In this document: in pieces, positions 36,763 to 49,202 of the stretch
Layout: every line of letters begins with the position of its first letter
How positions within the stretch are numbered: position 1 is the stretch's first letter
Source of the DNA: Chthoniobacterales bacterium
GTDB lineage: Bacteria; Verrucomicrobiota; Verrucomicrobiia; Chthoniobacterales; JACTMZ01
Direction of reading: 5' to 3'
Length of the DNA stretch: 57,318 bases
Assembly: GCA_018883245.1 (NCBI GenBank)
Contig: VEQL01000016.1
Coordinates: 1 to 57,318 of the forward strand
The notes under the pieces: model-generated
Database searches by the model: none
The model's input: the letters and a program-made list of their open reading frames with translations, nothing else
What the model was told of the DNA's origin: nothing
Program-made: the position numbers and the translations under genes

Positions 36763-38094
36763 TCAACGGAGTCCGCCAAGCAGGAGCTCGGCATTGGTTT
36801 TCGTGCGCTGCAGGTTCCGCACCAAGGTTTCCATGGCCTCGACAGCAGGCAACTCGTTGAGTTGCTTGCGCAAGACGACGACACGCGACAATTCGTCGGG
36901 GTGGTAAAGGTTTTCCTCGCGGCGCGTGGCGGACTTGGTCACGTGAATGGCGGGGAATATCCGTTGGTCGGCGATCGTGCGGTCGAGATGGATTTCCATG
37001 TTTCCGGTGCCCTTGAACTCCTCGAAAATCAGGTCGTCCATCCGGCTCTGGGTTTCGATAAGGGCCGTTGCGACGATGGTGAGGCTTCCTCCCTCCTCGG
37101 TGTTGCGTGCCGCGCCGAAGAACTTTTTGGGCTTCATCAATGCCTTGGTATCCACGCCTCCCGACATGATCCGCCCTTTGCCGGGCTGGAGGTTGTTGAA
37201 TCCGCGAGCCAGACGGGTGATGCTGTCGAGAAGGATCACGACATCGCGCCGCTGTTCGACAAGCCGCTTGGCCCGTTCGATGACAAACTCGGCCAATTGG
37301 GTGTGCCTCTGCGGCGACTCGTCGAAGGTGGAACTGTAGATGTCCGCGTCAATCGACCGGCGGAGATCCGTCACTTCCTCGGGGCGCTCATCGACCAGCA
37401 AAAGTATCAAGCGCACGTCGGGCGACGTCGCCCGGATTGCCTGCGCCATGTCCTTCATGAGAATGGTTTTGCCTGTGCGCGGGGGGGCGACGATGAGCGC
37501 GCGCTGACCCTTCCCGAGCGGCGCGATAAGATCGACTGCGCGCGTGGTGAGGGCCGGGTCTTTGACGGGTTCCAGCAGGATGCGTTCCTGCGGAAAAAGG
37601 GGAGTAAGTTTGTCAAAAGGAATGGGCGGCTTCCATTCGGCAAGCGGCACTCTTTCGATGTCGGTGATTGCCGCCAAGCCGCAGTAGCGGTCGCGATCTC
37701 CCGGTGTGCGCAAGACCCCGGAAATCTCCAGTCCGGTCTGCAGTCCGTGGTCTCGCACAAGTCCTATTGATACGAAGACGTCGTCCGGGCCGGCAGCGAA
37801 ATTGTAACGAGGCCAGCGCAACATGGCATGGTCGCCGACATCCTCGATCATGCCGCGGCACGAAATGCTCGCGCCGCCAGCCAGGTAAAAGCGGCAAAGG
37901 TCGAAAACCAGGTGTCTCTTGGTGCCGTCTGGGCGCACGCGCATCGAGTATCTTGCCAGCAACTCGGCCAGCTGCGCGTGGGACAGCGCTTGTAGCAAGT
38001 CCAAGTCCAGTGCGGCACCGGCCACTTGGCTGGCGTCCGACGGAAGGCAGGCCAGAGACTGGTTCGGTTGCGTGGTGGCGGTCGCGCTTTTCAT
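36763..38094 (-). CDS. rho: Transcription termination factor Rho
   Basis: Rho is a ring-shaped RNA helicase that stops transcription. The 443-residue protein has an N-terminal Rho domain, a cold-shock-type RNA-binding fold (about 75-160; [19 protein letters not shown]) and the ATPase core. The core shows Walker A ([10 protein letters not shown]), [13 protein letters not shown], the R loop [10 protein letters not shown] and the Q loop region [14 protein letters not shown]. Start ATG 38094 overlaps the coaE stop by 4 nt; upstream residues in the same frame are shadow of coaE. It has the short N-terminus without long inserts. Confidence 0.96.
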
Positions 38095-38687
38095 CGTTGT
38101 GGCAGACCCAGACGAAGGGCCAAGAGCGCCGCCTGATGCTCGAGCCGAGGATGGCAACCATCGTTCCAAACCACGACCGTGGCGAGGGCCAGTTTATCCG
38201 CCAAAGGCCATTGGCTCGCGATCATGGCCTGCGCCTGCTCACGGGTAAGACCCCGCCCGGAAAGCCGCTCGAGTTGGACCGAGGGTGATGCACCGACAAC
38301 AACGGAAGCATCGAAACATTCCTGCGCCCCGACTTCGAAGAGCAGGGGGATGTCAGCAAGAAAGTCGCGTCCTTCGGCCAGGCATTCGGACCGCAGTTGC
38401 TGCCAGCGGCGATGCACTCGGGGATGAATGATTGTTTCGAGGCGTTTTCGAGCCTCGACGTCGGCGAATACTCTGCTGCGCAGGGCATGCCGATCGATTG
38501 TTCCGTCCGGCGCCAGGGCACGATCGCCGAATGCCGCGCGAATTTCTGAAATGACGGATTGATTCAACGAAAGCAATTCATGAACAAAGGCGTCGGCGTC
38601 GAAGCACACGAAGGGCTGAATAGCCGCAAGAGCGTGCGAAAAAGCGGACTTGCCCGATGCAATTCCTCCCGTGACCGCGAGAATCAT
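38091..38687 (-). CDS. coaE: Dephospho-CoA kinase
   Basis: CoaE adds the last phosphate in coenzyme A synthesis. The 198-residue protein opens with a P-loop (GGIASGKS, about 7-14), then CFDADAFVHELL and DIPLLFEVG, typical of the family, and an Arg-rich lid near RLSGRGLTREQA. The gene is translationally coupled to rho through a 4-nt overlap. It starts 80 nt downstream of the secretin gene on the same strand, so a promoter in 38688-38767 is likely but was not identified. Confidence 0.94.
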   Translation of the reverse strand: MILAVTGGIASGKSAFSHALAAIQPFVCFDADAFVHELLSLNQSVISEIRAAFGDRALAPDGTIDRHALRSRVFADVEARKRLETIIHPRVHRRWQQLRSECLAEGRDFLADIPLLFEVGAQECFDASVVVGASPSVQLERLSGRGLTREQAQAMIASQWPLADKLALATVVVWNDGCHPRLEHQAALLALRLGLPQR

Positions 38688-38767: not shown

Positions 38768-41410
38768 TTATTTCTGGCGGAATCCTTTGGCCGACATGCT
38801 TGGCTTTTTCAAATCTTTGGGCAACCCAAGAGGGTCGACGATTTCTTCCTGGTCCGAATCATCTTCCGGCCGCAACAACTGGCCGGCGGCGTCCATCAGG
38901 CGCGCCGTGACAAATATGATCAGATTTTTTTTGATCTTTTGATCGACCTCGGACCGAAACGCAACGCCGGCCAAAGGAATGTCGCCGAGGATAGGCACCT
39001 TGTCGTTCACTTTTTGAACGTCTTCGCGAATTAAGCCGCCCAAGGCCACCGTCTGGCCGTCCCAGATGCTCACGTTGGTGGTCACTTTGCGAACGCTGAA
39101 GATCGGCTGGTTGATGACATTTTCAGTCATCAGCGAGCGATCAACAGCAAAGAGATTCCTCAACACCGGAAGACCCGGGACGGTATTGTCAATCACTTGG
39201 CCAATGACCCTGTTTCTAACCATGTAGATCGGAGATCCGTAGTTCACAAAGCCGTCAAAGTCGACTACTTGGGGACTCAAGTTGAGATCGATGGTATAGC
39301 CATCGGGGCCGACCTGTGGCGTGACTTCCAGGATCACGCCAAGCTCCCGCGTCGTCATTGTCTCGGGAAAAGCTGGAGTCACGATCGGATCCGCCTGTGC
39401 TTGGCCAACAATTGCATTGTTATTATTGTTCCCGACCTGGTTGGGGACATCGGGCGGTGTGAAAGTTTCCGGGTAGGGGAATTCGCGTGTGATTTGGATC
39501 CGCGCCTTCTGCTGGCTTTTGGTCGTGACCTTGGGTGCAGCCATAAGATCCACGCCCTTCTTCTGGTTGAGCGCACGGATCACCATCTGGAACTGGGGAT
39601 TGGTGAAAACACCCGATATCGAAAAAATGCCCGGCGCCGGTGCGGTTAAGTTGCGGCCGGAGATACTTTGTGAAAGGAGGGCGTCGATCGAGTTCGCGCT
39701 TACTGCGCTCCCGGGACTCAGACCCGTGCCGGACCGGATACCGCTGGTGACGCTGTCTGTGCCAATCGGGGTGCCAGTGGCCGGATTGACAAACGGCCAC
39801 GTTCCGGTGGGGTCGTTGATCGTGGTGCCGCCGCTCCCGAACACGGCGTCTGAGCCGGGAATGCTGAAGGGACCAAGAGCCCAATCGAAGCCGAGTTCTT
39901 TCAAATTATTCTGGGACACCTCGACAAACTTCGACTCGATCTCGACTTGGGTCGGTTGTTCGGCCATGGCGGCATCGACGAGAGATTCGATGAGATCCAG
40001 ATTCGGCGCGGTATTTCGCACCACCAGCCGGCTGCTTCCCGCTATGAAGTTTGCACTCGCGCCGGGCGGAAACTCCACACCTTGAGACTCGAGGAACTGC
40101 CGGGCACTTTGGCGCGCAGAGAGACGGGAAGCTCCGGTGACGGGAACATCGCTGCGGCCCGGGGCTGCGGCTTGCTCCTCGGCGGTGGCAGTGAGCGCGT
40201 TACTCGGAATGAAACCGGGCGGAACTTTGAACTCCCTTTGCTCGAGGGTATCAGTTGGTTCAGACAGGGGCACGATAGAGACAGCGAAAGGCTCCACTTT
40301 CACTTTGAGGCCGGCCAAGGTCGCAACGTAGCGCAGCGCTTCATAGAGCGGAACGTTGCTGAGGCTGAGGTTGATCCTGCCGTCGCCGGCAGGTGCAGGG
40401 GGTGCCGCTGCTTCCTCTCCCTCCGCCCCTGCCGCGGGCGTGGTGACTGGCGGCGTAGTCGGCAACTTCAGGACGATATTGACCCCGCGACGCTCGGCAT
40501 CCGCTTCGCCCGTGTCGAGATCGCGGCTTCGTTGCTGCAGGAAGCCGATGGCCTGGCGGACAGTGGCATCTTTGAAGTCGATGCGGGGCACGATGATCCG
40601 GTTCAATTTGGCCAGCATCATTTCCGTGCCACGCTTCTCCTCCTGCAGCGCCGTGGAGTCGGTGGTGCGCGCCTCCACGAACTTGCGCCTGGGGCGCTCC
40701 CAGGCTTTGTCAACTTCCCACAGCATGCGTGAGCGGGTGTCGTTGTAAGCGCTGTCGTAGTAGCGTTGCTTGCCGAGTTCAACTTGTTCCATTCCGCGCA
40801 TCGCCGCGGCATTGTATTTGTCCGCGGAAAGCACCTGCTCATAACGCTTCAAAGCCATGTCATAGCGTCCGGAGTCGTAAAAGCCGTTGGCTTCAATGAG
40901 CAATTGTTCGACCTTTGAACGGTCCTCGGCAAACTCGGGTGTGATCGTTTTGTTGAAGTAGTCCGGTTGTTCGAGGCGCGAAAGGAACAGCGCAGCTGGC
41001 CGGTAGTCCGGGTTATACGCCGGCTCGAGCACCTCGCGCGCCACGGCTTCGGCTTTTGCATATTCCCCCTGACTGACGAGATATTCCGCATAGCGAACGG
41101 CGGTAGAGCAAAAGCGGGAGAGGGCGCGGGCGTGCAGGCCCTTGGTTGGATCGCCATCGGCTGCAAGGTTGACTGCCTCCTTGTATGCAAGGTAGGCGCC
41201 TTCGACATTGCCGGCCTTGAGCTTGGCATCTCCCTCGCGGAGCTTTTCTTCCGAGAGGACGGCGTTTTCCTGCCGGCGAATAATTTCCCGTTCGGCGCCG
41301 GCCTCGAGCCCGCCGGAATAAGATTCTGCTCCGGTTCCTGCCAAGGAAGTTATCGGGCCCGCTGCAATCAACACGGCGGACAACGAGATGGCTAAGCGCA
41401 GCGTGGTCAT
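38768..41410 (-). CDS. Secretin with N-terminal TPR region (Amuc_1098-like, copy 2)
   Basis: This 880-residue protein starts with a signal peptide (about 1-24), followed by TPR-like helices (about 45-230; KAGNVEGAYLAYKEAVNLA, YDSGRYDMALKRYEQVL), a secretin/STN-like N domain near 275-385, and a C-terminal secretin beta domain whose end is marked by VPILGDIPLAGVAFR near 805-819 and KKNLIIFVTA. Secretins form outer-membrane channels for type IV pili and type II secretion. It is the last gene of the locus, overlapping the preceding paralogue by 4 nt, and the two have the same domain order. A Pro/Ala-rich linker (about 310-340) and a variable loop near 535-610 set it apart from copy 1. Confidence 0.87.
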   Translation of the reverse strand: MTTLRLAISLSAVLIAAGPITSLAGTGAESYSGGLEAGAEREIIRRQENAVLSEEKLREGDAKLKAGNVEGAYLAYKEAVNLAADGDPTKGLHARALSRFCSTAVRYAEYLVSQGEYAKAEAVAREVLEPAYNPDYRPAALFLSRLEQPDYFNKTITPEFAEDRSKVEQLLIEANGFYDSGRYDMALKRYEQVLSADKYNAAAMRGMEQVELGKQRYYDSAYNDTRSRMLWEVDKAWERPRRKFVEARTTDSTALQEEKRGTEMMLAKLNRIIVPRIDFKDATVRQAIGFLQQRSRDLDTGEADAERRGVNIVLKLPTTPPVTTPAAGAEGEEAAAPPAPAGDGRINLSLSNVPLYEALRYVATLAGLKVKVEPFAVSIVPLSEPTDTLEQREFKVPPGFIPSNALTATAEEQAAAPGRSDVPVTGASRLSARQSARQFLESQGVEFPPGASANFIAGSSRLVVRNTAPNLDLIESLVDAAMAEQPTQVEIESKFVEVSQNNLKELGFDWALGPFSIPGSDAVFGSGGTTINDPTGTWPFVNPATGTPIGTDSVTSGIRSGTGLSPGSAVSANSIDALLSQSISGRNLTAPAPGIFSISGVFTNPQFQMVIRALNQKKGVDLMAAPKVTTKSQQKARIQITREFPYPETFTPPDVPNQVGNNNNNAIVGQAQADPIVTPAFPETMTTRELGVILEVTPQVGPDGYTIDLNLSPQVVDFDGFVNYGSPIYMVRNRVIGQVIDNTVPGLPVLRNLFAVDRSLMTENVINQPIFSVRKVTTNVSIWDGQTVALGGLIREDVQKVNDKVPILGDIPLAGVAFRSEVDQKIKKNLIIFVTARLMDAAGQLLRPEDDSDQEEIVDPLGLPKDLKKPSMSAKGFRQK

Positions 41411-43863
41411 TTCAAGTAAGGGGCCTGTTCGACAGGCGGCAGCGGAGCCGTGGAATCGAGCGGGATTTCTTCATCCGTGAGGGCGGCGTCCTTGGCCGCG
41501 GCAAGCGGCTGGCCAGCCGGATCCATCAAAGTGGCCGTGACGAAAATGATGAGATTGCGCTTGATGTGCTGGTCGGCTTGCGAGCGGAAAAGCGCACCAG
41601 CCATCGGGATGTCGCCGAGGAGAGGCGTTTTGTCGTTCACTTTTTGGATGTCTTCGCGGATCAAGCCGCCGAGAACAACGGTCTGGCCGTCATAAATGCT
41701 CACCGAGGTTTCAACCTTGCGCGTTGAAAAGACAGGATACTTGATCTCGTTTTCCGTGAGCACCGCTCCTTGGCTGAGAATGGGTGAACCGTAATTCACG
41801 AAGCCGTCGAATTCGGTTATTTCAGGAAGCAGGCGCAGGTCGATGGTGTAGTTGTCCGCACCAACGTTCGGCTGGACCTCCAGCCGAACTCCTGTGGGTT
41901 TCATGGTGAATTCGGTCGGGGTGGCCGGCGACACAGGCTGGGGGCCGGAATTCTGATCCTGCGGAACCTCCGGAGGAGTGTAAAGCGAGGGATAGCGAAA
42001 CTCGCGGACAATCTCGATGTTGGCGGACAGTCCGCTCTTGGTCGTAACCTTCGGCGCGGATAGAACATCCACACCTTTCTTTTGGTTGAGTGCGCGCAGA
42101 ACAACCTGAAACTGAGGGTTGGTAAACACACCGGCCAGAGAAAGAACGCCGGCGGCTGGCCCTACGGGAGAGCCGAAGAGGAGCGCATCCAGAGCACTGG
42201 CGGAAATGGCTGCTTGTCCGGTGCGGTTGCCTGCGGTCAAGGGATTTTGCCCGACTGGCGTGCCTCCCGGGTTCAAAAAGGGGTAATACGGCGCGGCTCC
42301 CGGAGTGCTGGGATCGACGGTGTTGAACTGGTTGCCCGTGGTGCCGCCGCCGGCAAAAATGCCGGAGCCGCCGGGTAAAGCGAACTGCCCCAACAGCCAA
42401 TCGAAGCCGAGTTCTTTGAGGTTATTTTGGGTGATCTCGACGAATTTGGATTCGATCTCGACCTGAGATGGGACCGTTCCCGCTGCGTTTTCGACGAGCG
42501 CATCGACGAGGTCCAGATTCTCTTGGGTGTTGCGCACGATGAGGCGACTGCTGCTGGCAAGGAAGTTCGCGCTGGCTCCGGCGGGAAACAGGACTCCCTG
42601 CGACTCCAGGAAAGCCTTCGCCGTGCTGCTGCCCGCAGTGCCTCCGGCGGTGTCAGCAGGTGCGCCGCTGCCCGACGGCATGCTGGTGAGAAAATCAGGC
42701 GGCACGCGGTATTCCTTTGTCAGGAGGGTGTCCGTCGGCTCGGAAAGCGGCACGATCAGCACCGCGTATGGCTCCACCTTTATTTTGAGGTTAGCCAAGC
42801 GTGTGATGTAATCGAGCGCTTCCCTTAGCGGGATGTTCGAGAGGTCGATGGTGATGGTCTGCGAAGCGGCTGCCGCGTCGAGTTTTAGCACAATATTGAC
42901 GCCGCGATCCGCGGCATCAACAGCCCCGGTATCGAGGGAAGCCGATCGTTGCCGCAGATATTCGACAGCCTCGCGAACGGTAGCATCGGTGAAGTTGATC
43001 CTCGGCACTATAATTTCGTCGAGCTTGCGGTTAAGGGACTGCGTGCCTCGGGTTGTGAGGACGGGCTGCTCGATGACTGCGGCCGGCCCGAGATCCACCC
43101 GCTTGACCGGCGTTTCCCACGCCTTGTCCACTTGGGTGATCATGCCGGCGCGCGTTTCGCTGTAAGCAGTATCTGCGACGCGCATCTTGGCCACATTGAC
43201 CTGTTCCATGCCGCGGCGCGCCGCGACGTTGTATCTGTCTAGACGCAGGACAGATTCGTAGCGCGCGGTTGCCTCGTCGAAGCGTCCTGAATCATAGAGG
43301 CCTTGGGCTTCGACGAGGAGCTGCTTGACCTCCTCGACCTTCGCCACCTGGCCGGGGGTTACCGTTTTGTTGAAATAGTCGGGAGCTTCGAGGCGGGCCA
43401 GCAACCGCTGGCCTGGTTTGTAGTTCGGATTGTATTCGAGGAGCTTTTGCGCGGTTTCTTTCGCATCTTCCCATCTTCCCTCGGCAATGCGCTGCTCGGC
43501 CAAGCCCATGCATGCTTTGGAGAATCCGTCCATTGCCGTGGTGCGCAGGTCGCGAACACGGGGAGCATCGGGAAGCGCATCCACCGCCGCTTTGTATTGA
43601 GCGTAGGCCGTCTCGTAGTCGCGCTCCATCAGCGCCACGGAGCCCCTCTGCATGGCTTGGGGTGCATAGTCCTCCGCAAGCTTCATGCGCTTGGCAATTT
43701 CCAATTCTGCCTGGGCCTCGACACCGGATGCAGGGGCCGGGCCCGACGTGCCGCCTGCATTCAACAACGCCGGCGAGGCAGTGAAAACCAGGATTGCACA
43801 GACGAAACGCTGCTTGAGTGCACCCAGCCGCTGGTGGGATCGGGACTTGGTCACGGTGGTCAT
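41407..43863 (-). CDS. Secretin with N-terminal TPR region (Amuc_1098-like, copy 1)
   Basis: This 818-residue paralogue of the next gene has the same plan: signal peptide (to about residue 36), TPR-like helices (about 55-245), a short STN-like domain near 335-375 (TIDLSNIPLREALDYITRLA) and a secretin domain with ALNQKKGVDVLSAPKVTTKSG, VVLGGLIREDIQKV and TPLLGDIPMAG near 746-756. It is coupled by 4-nt overlaps both upstream (43860-43863) and downstream (41407-41410). The two secretins could form a mixed ring or two separate channels. Family assignment is firm; the relation to Amuc_1098 rests on gene order and domain layout. Confidence 0.87.
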   Translation of the reverse strand: MTTVTKSRSHQRLGALKQRFVCAILVFTASPALLNAGGTSGPAPASGVEAQAELEIAKRMKLAEDYAPQAMQRGSVALMERDYETAYAQYKAAVDALPDAPRVRDLRTTAMDGFSKACMGLAEQRIAEGRWEDAKETAQKLLEYNPNYKPGQRLLARLEAPDYFNKTVTPGQVAKVEEVKQLLVEAQGLYDSGRFDEATARYESVLRLDRYNVAARRGMEQVNVAKMRVADTAYSETRAGMITQVDKAWETPVKRVDLGPAAVIEQPVLTTRGTQSLNRKLDEIIVPRINFTDATVREAVEYLRQRSASLDTGAVDAADRGVNIVLKLDAAAASQTITIDLSNIPLREALDYITRLANLKIKVEPYAVLIVPLSEPTDTLLTKEYRVPPDFLTSMPSGSGAPADTAGGTAGSSTAKAFLESQGVLFPAGASANFLASSSRLIVRNTQENLDLVDALVENAAGTVPSQVEIESKFVEITQNNLKELGFDWLLGQFALPGGSGIFAGGGTTGNQFNTVDPSTPGAAPYYPFLNPGGTPVGQNPLTAGNRTGQAAISASALDALLFGSPVGPAAGVLSLAGVFTNPQFQVVLRALNQKKGVDVLSAPKVTTKSGLSANIEIVREFRYPSLYTPPEVPQDQNSGPQPVSPATPTEFTMKPTGVRLEVQPNVGADNYTIDLRLLPEITEFDGFVNYGSPILSQGAVLTENEIKYPVFSTRKVETSVSIYDGQTVVLGGLIREDIQKVNDKTPLLGDIPMAGALFRSQADQHIKRNLIIFVTATLMDPAGQPLAAAKDAALTDEEIPLDSTAPLPPVEQAPYLK

Positions 43864-44888
43864 GGGGACGGCAGAGATTCCGGGGCTGGTGCTGTCTGGG
43901 CCGAAGCCGGTGGCACCGTATGACGCTCACCCGGAACAGATACGGACTCTATTACCGCCCCCGTGGCATCTGCGTCAATGAGTTTGTAGGAGTCACGACC
44001 GGGCGGCAGGGGAAATGTCTTGCCCTTTTCAACCCGAATATCTTCGCCTGTCACGGCATAGTTAAAAATTGCGTAGGAGTAGGGCGAGTCCACTTCCTTT
44101 TCGGCTGTCAGGACAATTTTGTCGCTAGTTCCAAGATCTTGAACCACAAGCTCGGAGACATCGATATCCGCCCCAATGCGGTTTTTGGTCATTTTTGGAA
44201 TGGCCTCGATAATTTTCAGCTCTGTTCCTTTGATCTTATCTCCGATCTTGAGAAACTGGGTGGGCTCATTGGAGTCGGTGGGATTGGCGATGGCGAAGAG
44301 CGTGTCTGCCGGGAAGGATTTGGAGCCTTCCGGCAAATCCCAAGGCTTCGAGCTGGGCGCGCCCATAAATTTGATGCGGAAAGGTATCTTTTCGTAGGAA
44401 GCCAGACGGAGCTTGGACCAAAGAGGGGGTTTGGATTCAGGGTCACGCGGGTTGGATCCCGCCCGGAATTCCTCCTCGTTGGTGAAGGCATCAGCGTCGG
44501 CGTCCTTCATCATCAAATCGCGGTCGGCGTAATCCAATTCGTGCTGCAAAATCCATTCGTTTGGAACTCCCGGATAGAGCTGCGTGTTGCTTTCGAAAAT
44601 ATCGACCAATTCGCCATCGCGGAGCAGGTAAACGCGGCTGACAAACAGCGAGCCGTCGGCGGCATCCCAAGTAAATTCTCCCGGTTCGGCAAGCTTGGCG
44701 GACTCGGACTTGAGTGCGGCGAGCGACTCGTTCGGGGCGAAGGCCGCGCCCCTTCCGGCTTGGGCCGGAGAGACAAAAGTCGTGCGGCACTCCTGCATTC
44801 CGGTGACAGCGAAGAAGGCGGCACCAAGCAGGAACAGTGCGGCTAAAATCAACAGGAGGCGCTCGTAGTTGGCTTTCAGGTAGTCCAT
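43860..44888 (-). CDS. Amuc_1099-like anchored periplasmic protein with EF-hand-like loop
   Basis: This 342-residue protein has one N-terminal transmembrane helix (about 10-30) and a large periplasmic part. Residues 129-140 (DADADAFTNEEE) fit an EF-hand calcium loop with acidic residues at positions 1, 3, 5 and 12, followed by AGSNPRDPESKP, a pattern common in calcium-binding bacterial repeats. The rest is not recognisable beyond its position, which is that of Amuc_1099 between the Amuc_1100-like gene and the secretins. The C-terminal tail is Pro/Ala/Ser-rich. It is probably an inner-membrane alignment subunit comparable to PilP or GspC. It starts 11 nt after the Amuc_1100-like stop. Confidence 0.7.
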   Translation of the reverse strand: MDYLKANYERLLLILAALFLLGAAFFAVTGMQECRTTFVSPAQAGRGAAFAPNESLAALKSESAKLAEPGEFTWDAADGSLFVSRVYLLRDGELVDIFESNTQLYPGVPNEWILQHELDYADRDLMMKDADADAFTNEEEFRAGSNPRDPESKPPLWSKLRLASYEKIPFRIKFMGAPSSKPWDLPEGSKSFPADTLFAIANPTDSNEPTQFLKIGDKIKGTELKIIEAIPKMTKNRIGADIDVSELVVQDLGTSDKIVLTAEKEVDSPYSYAIFNYAVTGEDIRVEKGKTFPLPPGRDSYKLIDADATGAVIESVSVPGERHTVPPASAQTAPAPESLPSP

Positions 44889-44899
44889 TGGTGCGTCTG

Positions 44900-45802
44900 C
44901 TATTTTGCTGTTGGCGCGGCAGCGCCGTTTCCGGAGAGCGAGGCCAAACGCAAAATCATGGAAATCTTTTCCTCGCCGAAGATCACCGGAATGCGAGCCT
45001 CGCCTTGGACTTGTCCCGCCACTCCCATGTCGGGTGCCGCGGGAGGCGGAGTTGCGGCGGATTGGCTTTTGGCCGGCGGGTCGGGCGTGGAATTGGCGAT
45101 CTCGACAAGACGGACGAAGAGAATCGGCTTGGATGCCACGATTCGCGCAAACGCATCACGGCAGCGGCTCTGGTCGCCGGTGAAAGCGATGTCGAAAGGC
45201 GCAAGGGACATGACCGTGGAGGTTTCGCTTTGCTTTTTGTCGCCGTGCTTTTGGTCTGCGGTCTCCACGGGCAGGGGACGTCTGCTGACTTGGGTGACGG
45301 ATTCGACTTTGGCAGCCAAGAGCTGGTTCACTGCGGAGGCGACGGCAAGAAGTTGCTGACCGAGCAAAGGAGCTGCTTCAACGCTCGGCAGCTCGGTTTG
45401 GTATTTGTCAAACCCCAGGTAAAAGTCCTCCGGCAGCTTGCTGCCGGCTTTTTCCGCCGCCGCCGTGATCTCGCCCACCGCTTTGTTGAGCCGGTCTTGG
45501 AACTCCTGCGGATCGATGTCTGCCTCGACAACTCCGGAATCCTTGGCCATGACCGAGGACAATGACGCGAGTGTGGTCTCGACGTCTTTCAGCTCGGCTT
45601 CCAGTTTGTCCAAATTCTCCTTGTTCGGAAACGGCTTGCCGCTCTGCAAGCGTGCCAAGATGGACGTGTTTTCGGCGTAGGCTTCCGACGCCGCGACATA
45701 GGATGCGTGAAACGTATAGATCAGGTAGATTGCCGCGGCGGCCGCAATACCCGCGGTGATGGCGGCGGCGCTGAGTTTGGGATTTTGTCGGAACCAGTTC
45801 AT
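44900..45802 (-). CDS. Amuc_1100-like (PilO-type) membrane-anchored protein
   Basis: This 300-residue protein has a short cytoplasmic start, one transmembrane helix (about 11-30) and a coiled-coil-like periplasmic region. The middle closely follows Akkermansia Amuc_1100: YLGFDKYQTELPSVEAAPLLG, then an AVNQLL stretch and RRPLPVET, then FDIAFTGDQSRCRDAF. Amuc_1100 has a PilO-like fold and is a known immune-active surface protein. Here the ferredoxin-like domains should dock with the PilM-PilN fusion encoded just upstream. ATG 45802 lies 4 nt after the pilM stop; the in-frame stretch upstream is pilM shadow. A Pro/Ala-rich loop near 245-268 parallels a similar loop in Amuc_1100. Confidence 0.85.
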   Translation of the reverse strand: MNWFRQNPKLSAAAITAGIAAAAAIYLIYTFHASYVAASEAYAENTSILARLQSGKPFPNKENLDKLEAELKDVETTLASLSSVMAKDSGVVEADIDPQEFQDRLNKAVGEITAAAEKAGSKLPEDFYLGFDKYQTELPSVEAAPLLGQQLLAVASAVNQLLAAKVESVTQVSRRPLPVETADQKHGDKKQSETSTVMSLAPFDIAFTGDQSRCRDAFARIVASKPILFVRLVEIANSTPDPPAKSQSAATPPPAAPDMGVAGQVQGEARIPVIFGEEKISMILRLASLSGNGAAAPTAK

Positions 45803-45806
45803 CGCA

Positions 45807-47549
45807 TCAAAGGGGGATCGGGCGCCGCAGCGGCACGAGCAGCTTGTAGCGGTAAGCCCAAGACTCACCGTCGGGAGTGGTGCGGAGCTTCACCACGTCC
45901 GCCTTGTTTTCCTCGGTCACCGCAAAGAGCTTGGAATCTTTGAGCGCATCCACGAAGGCATCAACCACGCCGGCCCCCTGAGGGTTGCCTGCCTCGATAT
46001 AAAGGCCCTCGATACTCAAAGCCGTGACTGCCGCTGCCGTCTTGTCGGACGACTCCGCGGAGGCTGTCTGGTTTGGACGCTTGCCGCCATCCGGCAGCGC
46101 GAAGCCCGGAACGGCGGGTGATGGCTGGAGTTTTGTGATCCAAATGAACTTGGGTGGCTGGCGGCGGCTCAACTCGTTGAGGATTTCCGGCCATGCCGTG
46201 CGCATGAACGGGGCGGAAGCCAGATCGGAGGCATCTTTGAGCATCTTGTCCCTCTTCGCCTCAAGAGACTTGATACGGGCGGCTGTATCCTGCAGCGGGG
46301 CGATCTGCGACTGGATGGCCGCGTTGATCCCGGCGATGTGGGCTTCCGCGCCCCGGAAATAGAGGGCTAAGAGCGCCAAAGAGGCAAGGGCGAGCAAAAC
46401 CGCGCCTGCGAAGAACGGCATTTTGCGGGCGGTCTTGCGCTCGGATTCGAGGGAAGGTGATTTCAGCGAGACTTCGATCGGGCACTCCGGCTTCATCGCT
46501 CGCAGAGCAAGACCGACGCATTCGCCCAGAAGGTGGGCTTTGCCGGAGAGGCCCAAAGTCTCCACGGTCTGCGCCACACCCACGCGTCTGAGCGGATTGA
46601 AAAACTCGATCGGCAGGGAAAGCTTCTCGTTGAAGAATTCTAGCGTGTAGGGAAGCGAAACCCCGCCACCCGCGAGAAAAACCCTCATCGGTGCGCCGCC
46701 TTTCTGGTTGGTGCGGTAATGAGTGATGGAACGCGTGATTTCGTTGTGGATGCGGGTCATCACGGTCCTTGCGATCTTTCCCATTTCCGTCACTTCTTCG
46801 CTCTTCGCCCCCGCGTAGTTGCCGGGCGGGGGTATAAGGCCCTCGCTTTTCTTCAATGCCTCGACGTCATGAAAAGTGTGTGACTCGAACTTCTTGTGCA
46901 AAGCTGCCGTGATCGAGTTCCCGCCGATCGGCAGGGTGCGCATGAAAATATCTTCGCCCTCCGCAAAGATCAGGTTTGTCGCGCGTGAACCGATGTCGAT
47001 GAGCAGTGAGCAGCCCTGCGCCTCGGGGTAATTGTAGCGAAAGGCGTTGTAGAGTGCTGTCGGGGAAGGCTCGATGAGGGCAGGGGTAAGGCGCGCCCCT
47101 TTGAGAGCACCGACCGTGTCCTCCAACGCATCCACTTTGGTTGCGATGATCAGCGCGTGCATGCCGGCTTCGTCTTTATCCGGCAGCAATTGATAGGCCC
47201 ACGCAACGTCTTCGATCGGGTAGGGCACGTTTTGCTGCGCCTCGAAAAACAGCATCTGGCCGATCTTCTCCGGCGCCACGCTGGGGATTTTCACGAATCT
47301 CGCGAAGACCCCCTGAGAGGGGATGGCGCAGTATACTTCGCCGTGATTCCAGCCTGTTTTTGCCTTGAGCTCACTCAGAGCGATGCGCAGCTGTCCAGGG
47401 CGGCTGTCATCAGCGGCAGGATCAGGCAGGAGGTCCGTCTGCGCGTAGGAAACAAGCGAGATACCATCGTTCGCCGCCTCGAAGACCGCCATGGTGACGG
47501 TCTGCATGCCAAGGTTCAGGGTGGCGACGCGGGACGGTGCTTTTGGCAT
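45807..47549 (-). CDS. PilM-PilN fusion protein (Amuc_1101-like)
   Basis: This 580-residue protein joins a cytoplasmic actin-like PilM domain (about 5-360) to a membrane helix (about 378-398) and a periplasmic PilN-like region (about 400-580). PilM features are ATLNLGMQTVTMAVFE, LIDIGSRATNLIF (183-195) and FLAGGGVSLPY (291-301) for ATP binding. In the Pseudomonas system PilM and PilN are separate and bind each other; here they form one GspL-like chain. It sits 41 nt after the Amuc_1102-like gene and 4 nt before the Amuc_1100-like gene. ATG 47549 is preferred over the in-frame extension to 47726, which is antisense-like and non-conserved. Confidence 0.87.
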   Translation of the reverse strand: MPKAPSRVATLNLGMQTVTMAVFEAANDGISLVSYAQTDLLPDPAADDSRPGQLRIALSELKAKTGWNHGEVYCAIPSQGVFARFVKIPSVAPEKIGQMLFFEAQQNVPYPIEDVAWAYQLLPDKDEAGMHALIIATKVDALEDTVGALKGARLTPALIEPSPTALYNAFRYNYPEAQGCSLLIDIGSRATNLIFAEGEDIFMRTLPIGGNSITAALHKKFESHTFHDVEALKKSEGLIPPPGNYAGAKSEEVTEMGKIARTVMTRIHNEITRSITHYRTNQKGGAPMRVFLAGGGVSLPYTLEFFNEKLSLPIEFFNPLRRVGVAQTVETLGLSGKAHLLGECVGLALRAMKPECPIEVSLKSPSLESERKTARKMPFFAGAVLLALASLALLALYFRGAEAHIAGINAAIQSQIAPLQDTAARIKSLEAKRDKMLKDASDLASAPFMRTAWPEILNELSRRQPPKFIWITKLQPSPAVPGFALPDGGKRPNQTASAESSDKTAAAVTALSIEGLYIEAGNPQGAGVVDAFVDALKDSKLFAVTEENKADVVKLRTTPDGESWAYRYKLLVPLRRPIPL

Positions 47550-47590
47550 ATCAGCAGTCTTGGTAAGCGGGATCTGTAGCTGGCGGGGCC

Positions 47591-48211
47591 TTACATTCCA
47601 GCGGGACGGGCCTTGATCGCCTCGTAATAGTCCCACACAAGCGGAGCGAACGGCGTTTCGTTTTTGTTGAGCACATATCCTTGTGTGGTTGTCTGCTGCT
47701 CCCACCACTTGCCCTTGCCCTTCCAACTGGCCTCGGCCACGAGTTGGCCCTGTTGCGAGATGGTTACTCCCACATCGACGACGGCCGACGCGGCGGTCGA
47801 GGGGGCCCTGCCGCCAAAGAAGCGCTCAAGGGTGCGCGGGCTGACATACATCACGGAGTTGAGGCCTTTGGCTTGGGGAATCGCGACGTGAGTGACAGAA
47901 CCGGAGAGAAGGGTTCCCTTGGGATTCTCGCGGTCTTTGTTGTTTAGCAGGATATAGTAATTGATCGTGATCTCATCGAGAAATTCGGGCTTTTTCTGGC
48001 GAGGCTGCCAATCGAAATTCACTTCAACGGCCAGAAAATCTTTGTTTTTGCTGACCTTCTTGCCGGTCGGGCCGAGGGAAAATTGGTAGTCCGGCGTGCT
48101 CACATATTCTGGGGTGATTTTGGCGATGGCGAAGTCGCCGCTCGGGGTCTGCTGGGCGCAAAGCGGCGTGGCCAGCATGATCGCGAGTGTCGGTAGGATG
48201 TGTCTTTTCAT
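47591..48211 (-). CDS. Exported Amuc_1102-like protein of the pilus-like locus
   Basis: This 206-residue protein has a signal peptide (about 1-19, ending LCAQ) and a beta-rich mature part without a recognised domain. Motifs visible are FLAVEVNFDWQP, EITINYYILLNN and WDYYEAIKARP at the C-terminus. Its place as first gene of the block, before pilM, matches Amuc_1102 relative to Amuc_1101. A periplasmic or surface role in the pilus-like machine is likely by context only. The in-frame extension upstream to 48400 overlaps the epimerase gene and is rejected. Confidence 0.7.
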   Translation of the reverse strand: MKRHILPTLAIMLATPLCAQQTPSGDFAIAKITPEYVSTPDYQFSLGPTGKKVSKNKDFLAVEVNFDWQPRQKKPEFLDEITINYYILLNNKDRENPKGTLLSGSVTHVAIPQAKGLNSVMYVSPRTLERFFGGRAPSTAASAVVDVGVTISQQGQLVAEASWKGKGKWWEQQTTTQGYVLNKNETPFAPLVWDYYEAIKARPAGM

Positions 48212-48245: not shown

Positions 48246-49202
48246 TCAGGCCGCCGGGACGCGGCCGCGGAAATAGTCGATGGTGCGGGCGATGCCCTCG
48301 TCGAACGCCACGGTCGGCCGCCAGCCCAGCTCGCGCTGGGCCCTTGTGATGTCGGGCTGACGCACCTTGGGGTCGTCAACCGGGAGAGGGCGGTAAACAA
48401 TCTCGCTTTCCGGCGCTATGAGGTCGCGGATGCGCTCGGCAAACTCCTTGATCGTCATTTCGTGGGGATTGCCGATGTTCACAGGTTCGTGGAAGCCGCT
48501 CATCATGAGCCGGAAGATTCCGTCGATCAGATCCGAGACGAAGCAGAAACTTCTGGTCTGCGAGCCGTCGCCGAAGACAGTGATCGGCTGCCCGGCGAGC
48601 GCTTGGCCGATGAAAGCCGGAACGACGCGACCGTCGCGCAGACGCATGCGCGGCCCGTAGGTATTGAAGATTCGCACGATCTTAGTGTCCATCTTGTGGA
48701 AGCGATGGTAGGCCATGGTCATGGCCTCGGCGAATCGCTTGGCTTCGTCATAGACGCCGCGCGGGCCGATGGGATTGACGTTGCCCCAGTATTCCTCGCT
48801 CTGCGGATGGACAAGCGGATCGCCGTAGCATTCCGACGTCGAGGCCAGCAGAAAGGACGCTCCCTTTGCTCGCGCCAACCCCAAGGCGTTGTGTGTCCCC
48901 AAAGCCCCCACCTTCATGGTCTGGATCGGCAACTCGAGATAGTCGATCGGGCTGGCCGGCGAAGCCATATGGAAGATGTGATCGATCCTGCCGGGGATGT
49001 AGAGGTATTGCGTGACGTCCTGCTTGATGTAGCGGAAGTCGGGATTGCCCGCCAGGTGGGCTATGTTGTCGATGCTGCCGGTGATCAAGTTGTCGATGGC
49101 GATGACTTGATGTCCTTCGGCAAGCAGCCGGTCGCAGAGATGCGACCCGAGGAAGCCTGCGCCGCCCGTGACGAGGGAAACATGCTTGGAGGAAGATGAC
49201 AT
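48246..49202 (-). CDS. UDP-glucuronate decarboxylase (UDP-xylose synthase)
   Basis: This 318-residue short-chain dehydrogenase-type enzyme has the NAD-binding GGAGFLGS near residues 13-20, the catalytic GVYDEAK motif near 148-154, and [10 protein letters not shown]. The [12 protein letters not shown] segment near the end is typical of UDP-xylose synthases, which convert UDP-glucuronate to UDP-xylose. The product would feed surface polysaccharide or protein glycans. It lies between a polyprenyl-phosphate sugar transferase gene (49 nt gap) and the pilus-like locus (34 nt gap), all on the same strand. Confidence 0.9.

Follow-up and report, generated by a model that had tools for sequence, protein, structure and literature searches.

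A tandem pair of ancient secretin paralogues in the type IV pilus locus of Chthoniobacterales and their possible assembly into a mixed ring

The window analysed in this work is a stretch of 57,318 nucleotides (contig VEQL01000016.1, assembly GCA_018883245.1) from a Chthoniobacterales bacterium (Verrucomicrobiota), the genome of which is a 2.9-Mb draft in 84 contigs. Positions 38768-48211 of its minus strand carry six genes in the order Amuc_1102, PilM/Amuc_1101, Amuc_1100, Amuc_1099 and two secretins, called here SecA (first copy) and SecB (second copy). They constitute a true Amuc_1098-1102 locus of the type known from Akkermansia muciniphila, with chance resemblance excluded. According to our analysis, the best explanation of the data as a whole, to which we assign a probability of about 0.48, is that the locus encodes the core of a type IV pilus, whose once-duplicated secretin would form a mixed ring over one platform. 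The more specific proposition, that this secretin forms obligate hetero-oligomers from two ancient paralogues, one with long and the other with short gates, is put forward more tentatively still.

A secretin of this family was detected (E 1e-60 or better) in 101 of the 117 genomes of the order, whose families bear working labels (f1, f2 etc.). Six of them (f1, f3, f4, f6, f7 and f11) contain 42 genomes with a match, 41 of which have an adjacent pair, although the second copy is sometimes cut by a contig end (a contig break lies inside or beside it in G139, G346, G232 and G079). With G144 left out for a contig break within the first copy, the pair is kept in 41/41 checkable genomes; three other members of these families (G304, G314 and G275) gave no secretin match, for which assembly gaps may account. 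On the other hand, an adjacent pair was found in none of the 59 genomes from f2, f5, f8, f9, f10 and f60. These counts are a manual tally from a printed table. A single secretin was found in Chthoniobacter flavus Ellin428 and two in the "Spartobacteria bacterium LR76" record; among the relatives in the GTDB collection, the named ones carry the labels Chthoniobacterales, Spartobacteria or Verrucomicrobia, and the nearest are mostly metagenome-assembled genomes (MAGs) from lakes and the MAGs VE1, BJ18 and DTUVER2. The two-secretin layout, which the preliminary description of this DNA had reported as a departure from Akkermansia, is therefore not private to one genome but fixed in six families. 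It does appear to be new: in the searchable literature on tandem, duplicated or heteromeric secretins and on Verrucomicrobiota pili the pair is not described, which is weak evidence of novelty, as subscription journals lie mostly outside that literature.

Two observations concern the annotation of the pair. In one MAG (G212), the whole secretin pair occurs twice, in diverged form, on contigs C24 and C75 (loci L118 and L120), probably because two strains were placed in one bin. Open frames of 1719-1772 aa that span both genes (e.g. in G216, G163 and G107) could mislead into calling a fusion; in the sequences, a TAA or TAG stop codon separates two frames, the second of which begins with an ATG and a new N-terminus, and the fused double secretin was rejected.

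In the tree calculated for 55 secretins, the first copies form one clade (support 100/99) and the second copies another (100/100), with the long-branch members from f3, f6 and f11 placed less surely; a quicker tree with more outgroups reproduced the same split. The tree of PilM groups the families that carry the pair into one clade (100/99). Because the first and second copies form separate clades and the carrying families a single PilM clade, there was one duplication of the secretin gene, in place, in the ancestor of the six families. The question of age, left by the preliminary description to a secretin tree, is thereby answered in favor of an old event; whether it slightly preceded or slightly followed the divergence from f2/f8/f9 depends on a node with support of 62/35. 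The flanks around the pair are unchanged (uxs on one side, coaE-rho on the other) and the rest of the locus stayed single-copy while the secretins doubled, with one set of Amuc_1099-1102. Acquisition of the pair by transfer was rejected, given the in-situ synteny and the matching trees.

Both secretins comprise a signal peptide, a TPR region, N0/STN and N1-like domains and the secretin barrel; however, the N0 loop and the lower and upper gate hairpins are short in SecA and long in SecB. Loop lengths were read in a set of 19 first copies and in 36 named ones that partly coincide with it. The lower-gate tip has 14-15 aa in 19/19 and 36/36 of these, as opposed to 16-32 aa in intact second copies and 16-38 aa in single copies. 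The upper-gate hairpin in the genus of the window has 11 aa in every first copy read and 37-38 aa in the second copies compared. The N0 loop spans 14-18 aa in the 19 first copies and 14-19 aa in the 36 named ones, 27-50 aa in second copies and 31-72 aa in the true single copies of the order, while one apparent single with a short loop (L161) belongs to a contig-cut locus and is marked by its loop lengths as a first copy. The stretch after the LGFDW motif has 32-50 aa in first copies versus 19-33 aa. As the second and the single copies are both long, the short-loop first copy is the derived state within the order, and the second copy kept the ancestral one; in the outgroup L085, the N0 loop is short too. 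The assignment to the gate follows from a profile alignment to Vibrio cholerae PilQ (6w6m). In this alignment, the REF-YP motif matches residues 441-446, which immediately precede S448 and S453 in the lower gate hairpin (PMC7545093), and the gate tip comes directly after the motif; the hairpin ahead of FSxR falls close to T493 in the upper gate hairpin.

The preliminary description regarded both secretins as complete and not decaying, and this is borne out. In addition to the full set of domains, both copies are under purifying selection (dN 0.18-0.27 and dS about 1.6-3.2 by NG86, one comparison not being computable), and decay of one copy was rejected on this ground; since synonymous change is near saturation, the corresponding dN/dS near 0.1 is a rough figure only. 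Identity within the genus is 69-76% for the secretins, versus 36-50% for Amuc_1099 and Amuc_1100. It could be argued that the second gene arose recently or is redundant, and that dosage or mere chance has preserved it. However, SecA and SecB share only 52% identity, the first- and second-copy clades are older than the six families, and the class-specific loops are present in every intact copy with no loss seen; hence we consider redundancy hardly credible and the recent-duplicate reading already refuted. The barrel core is 63% identical between the copies, compared to 65% among first copies of different families, whereas the TPR region, the most divergent one, is 41% identical between the copies, compared to 49% among first copies. 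In Akkermansia this region has been likened to pilotin proteins (PMC4960237).

As previously noted, no pilin, PilB/PilT ATPase or PilC is present at the locus; such genes sit elsewhere in the genome. Three large ATPases of the T2SSE family were found, two of them tandem and PilB-like (contig 2) and the third (contig 4) beside a secretin and an F gene, as part of a separate set resembling the type II secretion system (T2SS). Two tandem PilT genes are on contig 1, PilC on contig 3, the prepilin peptidase (PilD) on contig 8 and Tad-like genes on contig 14; the genome also has 23 N-methylation prepilin signals, of which 22 exceed the Pfam cut-off, with one prepilin gene located within a few kb of PilT. 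Since the motor and the prepilins are encoded elsewhere, the locus is, as judged from predicted gene functions, the envelope core of a type IV pilus system. Thus, the earlier view of a pilus core separated from its motor stands, but the separation is nothing special: the order 1102-PilM-1100-1099-secretin-coaE-rho is common to the window locus and the Akkermansia-family genomes, so that the isolated locus with its coaE-rho flank is evidently ancestral in the class.

The preliminary description also mentioned a distinct secretion machine. A protein-secretion apparatus that reuses pilus-core genes would agree with the lack of motor and pilin genes at the locus and with the f6-g7 lineage and G087 keeping the pair without PilT. 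Nonetheless, with PilB, PilT, PilC, PilD and many prepilins present, we regard it as unlikely compared to a type IV pilus. PilB-type ATPases occur in all pair-carrying genomes searched and PilT in nearly all, the T2SS-like set has its own secretin, E and F genes, and Amuc_1098 resides in the outer membrane and is the proposed pilus secretin (PMC4960237). Moreover, the family secretin is absent from f61 (G306-G309) and from two 0.9-Mb genomes (G017 and G026), which also lack PilT except for one weak match in G309; this co-absence (Fisher p 0.004, uncorrected for kinship) ties the locus to the pilus motor. As for the genomes without PilT at E 1e-90 (G102, G065, G139 and G252 of f6-g7, and G087 of f3), they possess PilB-type ATPases and both secretins, and perhaps make a pilus that has no retraction motor. 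The tandem PilB pair (130761-133671 of contig 2) is found in single-secretin families too, e.g. in G154, G202, G323 and G332, and a link between the secretin pair and doubled motor genes was rejected for this reason.

In the proposed mixed ring, SecA and SecB would be translated together, each with its own N-terminal TPR region, and would assemble into a common ring in the outer membrane, seated on the single PilM-N/Amuc_1100/Amuc_1099 platform. The long gate loops of the pore and the long loop of the N0 ring would all come from SecB, while the SecA subunits would leave room. Such a ring could be closed against leakage and open for the filament made by PilB and, where PilT is present, retracted by it. 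One platform, coupled genes, complementary loops and joint retention speak for this arrangement, as an argument and not a proof. In particular, if two channels had to compete for one platform, the loss of a copy would be expected in some lineage, and short gate tips in one subunit are most sensible if the partner supplies long ones. The similarity of the barrels would be expected if they must fit each other.

A possible, though less favored, alternative is that the cell builds two homomeric channels on one inner-membrane platform, with the long-gate SecB serving one filament or state and the short-gate SecA another (a wider or second pilus, or the passage of DNA or protein). The 22 prepilins, two PilB and two PilT allow for more than one filament, and the Akkermansia family, with two family secretins at separate loci, provides a precedent for two channels per cell. 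However, there is a single Amuc_1099-1102 set, motor doubling does not track secretin doubling, as shown by the tandem PilB of single-secretin families, and Thermus thermophilus serves two pili with one PilQ (PMC13039148). Furthermore, all checkable genomes retain the two copies, small ones and those without PilT included. Besides the Akkermansia precedent, several points weigh against the mixed ring. Co-assembly of SecA and SecB is something we infer, and the secretin structures encountered, both in publications and among the PDB matches, are homo-oligomers. The barrel similarity and the conserved adjacency also fit two homomeric channels that are made together. The stretch of the alignment that maps the gate onto V. 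cholerae PilQ scores low by itself, its register being held by the flanking domains. Finally, in the platform, Amuc_1099 is assigned the role of PilP by position only, and the PilN part is recognized from weak matches.

The 4-nt overlaps reported earlier are read in the sequence, between the secretins (41407-41410) and between the Amuc_1099-like gene and SecA (43860-43863), and the remaining gaps in the six-gene block are of 4, 11 and 41 nt. Promoter and terminator scans returned sites no more numerous than in shuffled sequences. The secretins and the Amuc_1099-, Amuc_1100- and Amuc_1102-like proteins exceed their NCBIfam cut-offs (Table 1), and the assignment of the locus made in the preliminary description holds, with the Amuc_1101-like protein clear but below its own threshold (NF045709, Amuc_1101_fam: 529.7 bits, E 1.2e-158, full length, cut-off 650). 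By its position and PilM matches (phmmer against solved structures: E 3e-25 for PilM of Myxococcus and 5e-18 for that of Thermus), the latter is a divergent orthologue, but not an equivalog by the curated score. Its PilM domain is followed by a transmembrane helix, a coiled coil and an alpha/beta domain (AF2 model, pLDDT 86). The C-terminal part is an apparent PilN, as suggested by weak matches to Pfam PilN in 9/37 relatives (best E 0.0037); in a fold search with this part nothing scored under E 0.001, and neither Amuc_1100 6kny (probability 0.60) nor PilO 5uvr (0.66) was significant. The similarity to Amuc_1100, on which the preliminary description had staked its assignment, is significant (phmmer E 1.6e-15 against 6kny/6lad), and we consider this protein the probable equivalent of PilO because of its position and kinship. 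The Amuc_1102-like protein matches the solved structure 7dsz (phmmer E 6.4e-10). The Amuc_1099-like protein is modeled as a transmembrane helix with beta modules (AF2, pLDDT 82) and gave no significant fold match in the PDB and no Pfam match for PilP; its identification with PilP by fold was rejected, and a PilP/PilW-like role is inferred from position only. The DPDxDGFTNLEEF motif of its relatives corresponds to the Pfam bacterial TSP3 repeat, of a calcium-binding type, in 17/37 members.

Table 1. Genes, loops and neighbours of the secretin locus (positions in the window)
Feature	Position	Strand	Details
Amuc_1102-like periplasmic protein	47591..48211	-	206 aa, start 48211; NF042424 (Amuc_1102_rel) 120.4 bits, cut-off 55
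PilM-PilN-like apparent fusion, Amuc_1101-like	45807..47549	-	580 aa from ATG at 47549; PilM_2 E 2e-21
Amuc_1100-like, PilO-position protein	44900..45802	-	300 aa from ATG at 45802; NF038287 (Amuc_1100_fam) 188.3 bits, cut-off 180
Amuc_1099-like protein	43860..44888	-	342 aa; NF042425 (Amuc_1099_fam) 173.5 bits, cut-off 50; pilP/pilW position between PilO-like and secretin
Secretin A (SecA, first copy)	41407..43863	-	818 aa; NF042912 (Amuc_1098_fam) 832.7 bits, cut-off 750; Pfam Secretin, STN, TPR
SecA N0-domain loop	42844..42885	-	residues 327-340, 14 aa
SecA lower-gate hairpin tip	41929..41970	-	residues 632-645, 14 aa, EVPQDQNSGPQPVS
SecA upper-gate hairpin	41749..41781	-	residues 695-705, 11 aa
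Secretin B (SecB, second copy)	38768..41410	-	880 aa; NF042912 849.9 bits, cut-off 750; Pfam Secretin
SecB N0-domain loop	40364..40468	-	residues 315-349, 35 aa, Pro/Ala-rich
SecB lower-gate hairpin tip	39377..39451	-	residues 654-678, 25 aa
SecB upper-gate hairpin	39119..39229	-	residues 728-764, 37 aa
coaE (dephospho-CoA kinase), conserved downstream neighbour	38091..38687	-	Pfam CoaE E 5e-41; synteny across order and Akkermansia family
rho, after coaE	36763-38169		synteny
uxs-like NAD-dependent sugar-nucleotide epimerase/decarboxylase, conserved upstream neighbour	48246..49202	-	Pfam Epimerase and GDP_Man_Dehyd; synteny

If the proposed mixed pore exists, its two kinds of subunits depart from the way in which secretin pores are known to be made, and secretin rings can become mixed like other rings after gene duplication. 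The fixed pair with its complementary gate changes would then offer a natural experiment for studying the sealing and opening of a pore by its gate loops. The analysis also shows the Akkermansia pilus locus, which is of medical interest because of Amuc_1100, to belong to a gene block that is old and class-wide, and it supplies a clear variant for comparison.

The locus of A. muciniphila (Amuc_1098-1102) has the same genes in the same order and the same downstream coaE-rho, with significant homology for every gene, and it likewise contains no motor genes. It differs from the locus described here in having one secretin instead of two in tandem, and the PilM-like protein of our locus falls below the equivalog cut-off. 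The second family secretin of Akkermansia-family genomes sits at another locus (8344-10866 of L084, minus strand; also in L080 and L082), in contrast to the tandem copy of Chthoniobacterales. It exceeds the family cut-off in G019 and others, G019 being an Akkermansia according to its Amuc_1100 match (E 1.4e-148), and it adjoins a conserved protein of ~520-550 aa (L084 6678-8324) and not PilM-type genes. With pilMNOPQ of type IVa pili the locus shares the operon order of PilM, a PilO-position protein and a secretin, as well as the presence of a gene between PilO and PilQ. On the other hand, PilM carries here an apparent fused PilN part, Amuc_1099 takes the place of PilP (a position occupied in Thermus by PilW; PMC13039148), the secretin has a TPR N-terminus with no AMIN match and comes in two copies, and Amuc_1102 is extra. 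Further counterparts are the single-secretin loci of other Chthoniobacterales, e.g. that of C. flavus Ellin428 (L162), which are orthologous together with their flanks and in which the lone secretin has a long N0 loop and a long gate tip, as does the second copy in the window.
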